A DNA stretch of 64,000 bases from a virus, in the IMG/VR virus record IMGVR_UViG_3300028284_000004, positions 1 through 64,000 of that record; one strand, written 5' to 3'. The notes below the pieces were generated by a model. The model searched no databases and was not told the origin of the DNA. It worked only from the letters and a program-made list of their open reading frames with translations. Made by a program: the position numbers and the translations under genes. Shown here one piece after another: positions 32,135 through 46,227 of this stretch (its first letter is position 1; every line of letters starts with the position of its first letter).

Positions 32135-32169
32135 GGGCTTCTATGTATTATATAGGAGCCCTTTTTTTT
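32135..32169 (+). terminator. Rho-independent terminator
   Basis: GGGCTTCTATGT / ATATAGGAGCCC stem (about 11-12 bp with G-U pairs) followed by eight T. Ends the dsbA-31811 unit. Confidence 0.88.
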
Positions 32170-45002: not shown

Positions 45003-45338
45003 CTATTTCTTGTTATTGAACGCTTGTGCGCCAAAGAATGCCGCAACGATACCAGCAACAGCAACAAAATATGTAGGTGCCATATCGCCTAGTGTTTTAG
45101 CAGCATTGTCTAAACCAATAAGTGAAGCAATTACCACAGCAAATGGGTATAACAATAAGCCAAACAAAGCAAACCATGTCATATTACGTTGTGCATCACG
45201 CATAGCATCTTCATCATCAAGACGCTTACGTTTTGCATCAAGCATAAGCTCGTATTCTTCTTTACTAATATGACCATCACCATTCAAGTCATATTCTGAC
45301 AAGTCGTCACACGTCATTTTCTTTTCTTCTTCAGCCAT
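45003..45338 (-). CDS. EF-hand protein with two membrane helices (111 aa)
   Basis: A canonical EF-hand loop DLNGDGHISKEE (residues 17-28; Asp, Asn, Asp, Gly, Ile, Glu at the key positions) preceded by a helix and followed by another, then two hydrophobic segments (WFALFGLLLYPFAVVIASLI and FVAVAGIVAAFFGAQAF). Calcium binding is likely. A Ca-binding membrane protein inside the tail gene block suggests a virion part or membrane contact during infection. Read 2 bp after gp51 stop. Confidence 0.82.
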   Translation of the reverse strand: MAEEEKKMTCDDLSEYDLNGDGHISKEEYELMLDAKRKRLDDEDAMRDAQRNMTWFALFGLLLYPFAVVIASLIGLDNAAKTLGDMAPTYFVAVAGIVAAFFGAQAFNNKK

Positions 45339-45340
45339 CT

Positions 45341-45535
45341 TTATCTCCGCCTTTGAGCTTCTTGTTTTTTAAGTCTATCATTTTCTTCTTTGATAAAATC
45401 TTGTAGAAGAGATACATAGATTTCCCTCTCCCACGGCACCATCTCGTTTAGCTCGGTTAAGCTATAACTGTGGTGCTGCATCATCGCGAAGTTAGTCTTA
45501 AAATGATTGACTAAACTTTCATGAGAGAGGCCTAC
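45341..45535 (-). CDS. 51: gp51-like baseplate hub assembly protein, -1 frame extension of gp26
   Basis: The open stretch (about 64 codons) reads VGLSHESLVNHFKTNFAMMQ, then HHSYSLTELNEMVPWEREIY and a basic end. This matches the SLTEL-NEM-PWEREIY pattern that I associate with gp51-type hub assembly chaperones. The frame has no ATG until a pair at 45479-45484, without a decent ribosome-binding site, and a TGA just upstream of the slip site. The likely route is a -1 frameshift at T TTT TTT at the end of gp26, giving a gp26-gp51 fusion. An internal start would leave 47 residues. Confidence 0.75.
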   Translation of the reverse strand, partial: VGLSHESLVNHFKTNFAMMQHHSYSLTELNEMVPWEREIYVSLLQDFIKEENDRLKKQEAQRRR

Positions 45536-46227
45536 GAAAAAAAACTTTGAATACCTTTTAATTCAATGCTGTTTTCGTGTTCACATTTAGTACATACAAA
45601 TTCTATATTATGAACTAATGCCGGTAAGTCTTGGAAGAACTTTGCTAACTTTTGGAATTGACCACTGTTTAAGCTATCAATAAAATCAGTTAAACTCTTT
45701 CTTGTTTCGTCTTTACACGGATATACATTATCATTATCAAAGATATTAACCATGCACTTGGTCATTAGTTGCAAAATAGCTTCCGTTCCTTCCGTGCCAG
45801 CTTCGAAATCTCCAATAGTTGGATATCGCATAGTGACACCAATAGTATCAGTGACCTGAATAATCTTTGAATCTTCATCGACTCCAGTCACTTCAATCTC
45901 TTCAAGATTTACTTGTGTCTCATGCGGATGTTCGCACTCTGAGCACTTAGCATTTAGGTCAGCAGTTTCACCAACTGATTTTGATCTAAGCTTTAAAAAC
46001 AAAGTCTCGATATCAAAAACCGCAAGCTCATCTACATTAATATCATCAAAGACACATGCCTCGATAACATCCTTTACTGCCTTCATGATTTGTCTTTGAT
46101 CTTTCGATTCAAGAGCAATCATAAGAATCTTTTCTTCTTTGACCAAATAAGGTCTATAATCTACTTCAACACCGGTTGAAGGAATAACTGTACTGTATTT
46201 CGAGCTATTCACTACTGGTAATGCCAT
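45532..46227 (-). CDS. 26: Baseplate hub assembly protein gp26 family (231 aa)
   Basis: Matches the T4 gp26 type: STVIPSTGVEVDYRPYLVKE, EEKILMIALESKDQRQIMKA and DIETLFLKLRSKSVGET. Two CxxC knuckles (CSECEH near 95, CTKCEHE near 217) could bind zinc. Part of the tail hub assembly apparatus; not expected to be abundant in virions. ATG behind TTAGGAGAAGATT. The frame ends three codons after the start of an eight-T run, which is the slip site toward gp51. Similar in layout to the lambda G/GT tail chaperones. Confidence 0.86.
   Translation of the reverse strand: MALPVVNSSKYSTVIPSTGVEVDYRPYLVKEEKILMIALESKDQRQIMKAVKDVIEACVFDDINVDELAVFDIETLFLKLRSKSVGETADLNAKCSECEHPHETQVNLEEIEVTGVDEDSKIIQVTDTIGVTMRYPTIGDFEAGTEGTEAILQLMTKCMVNIFDNDNVYPCKDETRKSLTDFIDSLNSGQFQKLAKFFQDLPALVHNIEFVCTKCEHENSIELKGIQSFFS
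45537..45544 (-). promoter_or_regulatory. Slippery site T TTT TTT (-1 frameshift candidate)
   Basis: Eight consecutive T on the minus strand, three codons before the gp26 stop. In the gp26 frame this reads AGT TTT TTT TCG TAG, so the canonical heptamer X XXY YYZ is met as T TTT TTT. Slipping by -1 reads TTC GTA GGC and enters the gp51 frame. Confidence 0.72.

Follow-up and report, generated by a model that had tools for sequence, protein, structure and literature searches.

Probable -1 frameshifting joins gp26 and gp51 in one tail assembly chaperone gene of a marine T4-like phage

Introduction

Extension of a tail assembly chaperone (TAC) by -1 frameshifting is already known in tailed phages. 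The slip site of lambda gpG/gpGT is a G-rich heptamer. In that system a short form is accompanied by a low-level -1 frameshift extension, both encoded beside the tube and tape-measure genes, and a 2016 review sets T4 apart as the long-tailed phage that departs from this G/GT frameshift rule (PMC5009743).

The same device is apparently already known in the T4-like group too. Later papers trace the identification of the T4-like TAC genes to Vladimirov, Gautam and Davidson 2022 (Virology 566:9-15), together with the observation that in some T4-like phages a short gene and a longer fusion gene replace frameshifting (PMC12846349, PMC10885494); one of them also credits to that work poly-T as a known -1 signal in T4-like TAC-N genes (PMC12846349). 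By these citing accounts, the genes are of the same kind as those treated here. A conserved poly-T -1 site (GTTTTT) likewise lies at the TAC-N end in the Vandenendeviridae and Andersonviridae, which are other phage families, and the available parts of the account given for phage Adele describe neither an SD-like motif nor an RNA helix (PMC12846349). The E. coli dnaX and IS911 cassettes combine an upstream SD-like motif, a slippery heptamer and a downstream structure. Their slip sites are A-rich heptamers.

Here we describe the gp26/gp51 junction on the minus strand of a 64,000-nucleotide stretch of viral DNA, which we call the window (IMG/VR record IMGVR_UViG_3300028284_000004, positions 1 to 64,000). 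We hold with high confidence that gp26 and 'gp51' are one TAC gene, in which a -1 slip on T_TTT_TTT yields a fusion protein, and the data strongly support this marine T4-like phage as a further case of an already known kind of frameshift. The locus shares with lambda gpG/gpGT a short form, a predicted -1 extension and the neighbouring tail genes, but its gp26, a member of PF12322, is larger. It shares with dnaX and IS911 the three elements of the cassette, although the genes are unrelated and the downstream structure here spans about 106 nt.

Results

The gp26 gene (45532..46227, minus strand; 231 aa, PF12322) ends on the minus strand in GGT ATT CAA AGT TTT TTT TCG TAG. This sequence contains the slippery heptamer T_TTT_TTT in the gp26 phase (45538..45544, minus strand), inside a T8 run at 45537-45544, and the stop codon TAG (45532..45534, minus strand) lies one codon past the slip site. 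The -1 frame is open between an upstream TGA (45563..45565, minus strand) and a TAA at 45341-45343, and from the slip onward it encodes 65 residues beginning FVGLSHESLVNHFKTNFAMMQHHSYSLTELNEMVPWEREIYVSLL (45344..45538, minus strand; 65 codons). The first residue in this frame is F (TTC) and the junction reads ...GIQSFF-FVGLSHES..., the product from the slip being F-VGLSHESLVNHFKTNFA-MMQHHSYSLTELNEMVPWEREIY... and the predicted junction peptide of the gp26-gp51 fusion GIQSFFFVGLSHESLVNHFK. The predicted fusion has 295 residues and a mass of about 33 kDa. The first ATG of the -1 frame (45482..45484, minus strand) is not a credible start: the window sequence has no Shine-Dalgarno motif 5' of it. 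No ATG, GTG or TTG precedes it in that frame. The preliminary description had read from the window the gp26 ending and the phase of its heptamer, the TGA just upstream of the slip, the open frame into a gp51-like segment, and an ATG at 45484 that is first in its frame and lacks a good binding site; each of these readings holds in the minus-strand sequence.

T8 runs are avoided in the window, with 2 found against 14.4 expected, and one of them falls exactly at the slip site; the only other is at 32162-32169 on the plus strand. We also scanned the window for ends of ORFs of at least 100 codons beyond which the -1 frame stays open over a long distance (n=21). Here gp26/gp51 was the only short overlap with an in-phase slippery heptamer, and the one other heptamer match came from two long open frames that overlap over 1,248 codons. 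The avoidance of T8 and the single short overlap with an in-phase heptamer together indicate that the layout is more than chance.

The gp26 protein matches PF12322 with E 9.9e-63 (212 bits against a curated cut-off of 24.5) and phrog_150 with E 1.5e-65. For the -1-frame extension the match is to phrog_634, 'baseplate hub assembly catalyst' (E 3e-27). For the AlphaFold model of gp26 (pLDDT 87.7), the PDB match of best probability in Foldseek was the HK97 TAC 2ob9, with a probability of 0.89 but an E of 0.35; matches in BFVD were to T4-like hub proteins, and no chaperone turned up when the sequences of solved structures were searched by profile. The gene lies, as is seen in lambda, between a tail-tube-like gene upstream (phrog_45, E 4.9e-36) and a tape-measure-like gene downstream (phrog_305, a weak match with E 0.0012). 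A short and a long isoform with a common N-terminal domain are predicted from sequence by the same layout in 148/148 related junctions. The best account of these data is that gp26 is TAC-N (lambda gpG-like) and the fusion TAC-NC, with the gp51-like segment as a C-terminal extension (lambda T-like). The lambda G/GT-type arrangement proposed in the preliminary description is thus in keeping with the model's likeness to the HK97 TAC and with the neighbouring genes, and we infer a chaperone role for gp26 and the fusion in the present phage.

Between gp51 and the tape-measure-like gene lies a small protein gene (45003-45338, minus strand). Its product carries a single EF-hand (DLNGDGHISKEE), which falls slightly short of the PF13202 cut-off (E 6.9e-6), and after it apparent membrane segments. 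ORFs of similar size occupy this place in Melnitz and HTVC008M.

Relatives were collected by searching IMG/VR with gp26 and gp51 profiles and by adding annotated phages. We examined 159 junctions, of which 148 were non-redundant after duplicates were dropped. Relative to gp26, gp51 is in the -1 frame in 159/159, and all 148 non-redundant junctions carry an in-phase T_TTT_TTN, where N is C in 69, T in 59, A in 19 and G in 1. An in-phase X_XXY_YYZ heptamer within the overlap of the two frames, as expected for -1 programmed frameshifting, is therefore found throughout the set. Cultured phages with this layout include the Pelagibacter phages Mosig and HTVC008M and the Methylophilales phage Melnitz. 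The codon preceding FF is one for Ser, Asp, Asn, Ala or Gly, yet it ends in T in 148/148 (background 79%), and the first Phe codon is TTT in 148/148 (background 76%). The gp26 stop lies one codon past the slip in 102/148 and zero codons past it in 31/148. The alignment of homologous junctions that had been proposed as a check thus shows the T-run, the phase and the -1 relation kept in 148/148, and the opposing case, of relatives with no T-run or a different phase, is seen in 0/148. Judged by this conservation, the slip site is very probably real.

The stretch between the slip and the first Met was then considered by frame. In the -1 frame 69% of single-base codon differences are synonymous, whereas the other two frames give 17% and 10%. 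Stop codons interrupt the -1 frame in 0/148 junctions, one of the other frames in 148/148 and the remaining one in 140/148. By these comparative measures the stretch evolves as a -1-frame protein. The -1 frame also lacks a start of its own, in that 140/148 junctions have no ATG, GTG or TTG from the upstream -1 stop to the slip. These data bear on the possibility that gp51 is a separate short protein, translated either from ATG 45484 as an internal start or after reinitiation past the gp26 stop. Public records do annotate short CDSs starting past that stop, and Met is common at the position of ATG 45484. However, an SD-like motif precedes only 3/140 of the internal Met codons, compared to 111/144 starts of gp26; in the -1 frame, selection acts at the protein level on the stretch of about 17 residues ahead of the Met, and no stop breaks this stretch; and the equivalent residues lie inside the single ORF of T4 gp51. 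We therefore consider a separately started gp51 very unlikely. The suggestion that the ~17 residues ahead of the ATG are real protein is borne out by the same synonymous pattern, and a conserved gp51 ATG with its own binding site, which would have spoken against the fusion, was not seen in the relatives.

Upstream of the slip site, an SD-like motif is present at -18..-5 in 129/148 junctions, compared to 12% in the gene body, and its distance from the heptamer is about 9 nt. The window has a weaker form of the GGAGGG that occurs in relatives, AAAGG (45554..45558, minus strand), likewise 9 nt 5' of the heptamer. Part of this enrichment stems from an invariant Gly codon, so the cleaner evidence for the motif is the choice of Glu codon at -4, which is GAG in 51/73 (70%) versus 24% in the gene body.

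Downstream of the slip site, the RNA at this place in the window has an MFE of -40.9 kcal/mol (z -4.94), and 0/200 shuffles are as stable. The MFE structure is multi-branched and is closed by an outer helix, which is also supported by covariation. Its 5' arm, CCUCUCUCAUG (45520..45530, minus strand), is separated from the heptamer by a 7-nt spacer (45531..45537, minus strand; alignment columns 26-32), and its 3' arm is CGUGGGAGAGG (45425..45435, minus strand). This helix, CCUCUC/GAGAGG, was proposed from five sequences and then tested. The top two covarying pairs among 14,877 position pairs are adjacent outer-helix pairs, both at third codon positions, and after thinning to 82 sequences with <60% identity they gave Fisher p values of about 1e-5 and 2e-6. 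The observed level of outer-helix pairing was reached in 0/500 shuffles, and every slid register was lower. In single-sequence ensembles the outer helix has a mean pair probability near 0.6, the highest of all helices. Compared to codon-shuffled sequences with protein and codon usage fixed, the post-slip RNA has a mean z of -2.46 over the junction set, versus -0.5 to -0.6 for three gp26 body segments.

We do not see one structure in every relative. RNAalifold gave zero pairs and no consensus structure on the full 132-sequence alignment, so a single universal post-slip structure was rejected and the outer helix rests on the pair-specific tests. All nine pairs can form in 41/132 sequences, and a run of six or more in 74. 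In some lineages, P-SSM2 and L105/L108-type contigs among them, the outer helix gives way to local hairpins of 7-12 bp; these are lineage-specific, and their sequences vary while the pairing is kept. Such hairpins lie directly 3' of the slip in L097, L100, L105, L108, L119, L121, L134, L002, L083, L084, L039 and L149. Taken together, the pairing statistics indicate that RNA structure is under selection. The stimulatory elements typical of -1 programmed frameshifting, here an SD-like motif and an RNA helix, are present at sequence level, and would be expected to stimulate slippage.

A fusion could also arise by transcriptional slippage on the T-run and not by ribosomal frameshifting. The window has a T8 and some relatives have T7-8, but in 89/148 junctions the run has only six T's, with the phase of the heptamer kept. 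Bacterial transcriptional slippage has been described on runs of 9 (PMC5009743), which are longer than those found here. The SD-like and RNA-structure elements moreover suit ribosomal slippage, and we rate the transcriptional route as even less likely than a separate gp51. That a sequencing error or a recent homopolymer mutation has broken up a gene that is intact in the living phage is refuted by the comparative data, since, although homopolymers are error-prone and gp51 is continuous in T4 relatives, the same -1 relation recurs in 159/159 junctions from independent contigs and isolates, and runs of 6, 7 and 8 T's all leave gp51 in the -1 frame.

Finally, the junction was compared with T4 and other T4-like outgroups. 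The alignment of T4 gp26 with the fusion stops at the slip site (hhalign E 2.5e-19), whereas T4 gp51, which is one ORF, aligns to the whole fusion including the slip-to-Met residues (hhalign E 1.3e-17). The two T4 proteins are related to each other (E 6.7e-10), and each matches PF12322 over its full length. T4 gp26 is therefore like the short form and T4 gp51 like the whole fusion, but T4 differs in that genes 26 and 51 are separate and divergently transcribed, with a continuous gp51 ORF and no frameshift. By these alignments the two forms appear to come from two genes in T4. One PF12322 copy was found in the 67,303-base record of the present phage, which is possibly a fragment.

When Ackermannviridae and in-frame fusions are excluded, the heptamer is present in 8/8 T4-like outgroups, namely PVA8, phiM9, Moby, V45v66, Bakedbeans, phiAS5, Cr30 and Milchi. 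The gp51 gene is continuous in T4, JS98 and avDM4. In Campylobacter phage CJLB-13 (L165 2453-3193), gp26-gp51 is one continuous ORF. Three Ackermannviridae (L168, L169 and L173) keep the -1 relation without an X_XXY_YYZ heptamer, with endings such as ATT TTC ATT TAA; two of the three, LIMEstone1 and YC, have a TAATG overlap, and the third, SH19, lacks an ATG at this place. A frame relation kept in the absence of the classic heptamer suggests that a different mechanism can serve these genes.

Discussion

We infer both the occurrence and the rate of slippage in this phage, and the following steps would account for the two products. Most ribosomes would read gp26 to its TAG and release the short form, TAC-N. 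A minority, with two Phe-tRNAs in the P and A sites, would slip by -1 on T_TTT_TTT, helped by the SD-like motif about 9 nt 5' and by the multi-branch RNA whose outer helix begins 7 nt 3', and would go on to complete TAC-NC. By analogy with lambda gpG/gpGT, the short form would coat the tape measure and the extra segment of the fusion would recruit tail-tube subunits; both forms would depart before the tail is completed.

What may be undescribed is the set of stimulators. We did not find it in the literature searched, in which the content of Vladimirov et al. 2022 is represented by citing papers. A broader proposal is that the frameshift is driven by a composite signal undescribed for tail genes, in which the T6-T8 heptamer is flanked by an SD-like motif inside the gene and by a ~106-nt multi-branch structure whose outer helix covaries or, in some lineages, gives way to local hairpins, and that the T4 lineage later swapped frameshifting for two genes. 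We see the case for and against this proposal as evenly balanced.

The phage records examined split the gp26/gp51 gene. In public records gp51 is annotated as a short CDS starting past the gp26 stop (the L001, L003 and L004 regions). Such a start is annotated in 3/4 close relatives, and it truncates the coding region of the -1 frame, and gp51 with it. The tail annotation of cyanophages and Pelagibacter phages could be corrected in this respect. This group of phages also offers a natural comparison between a protein ratio set by recoding and one set by two separate genes.
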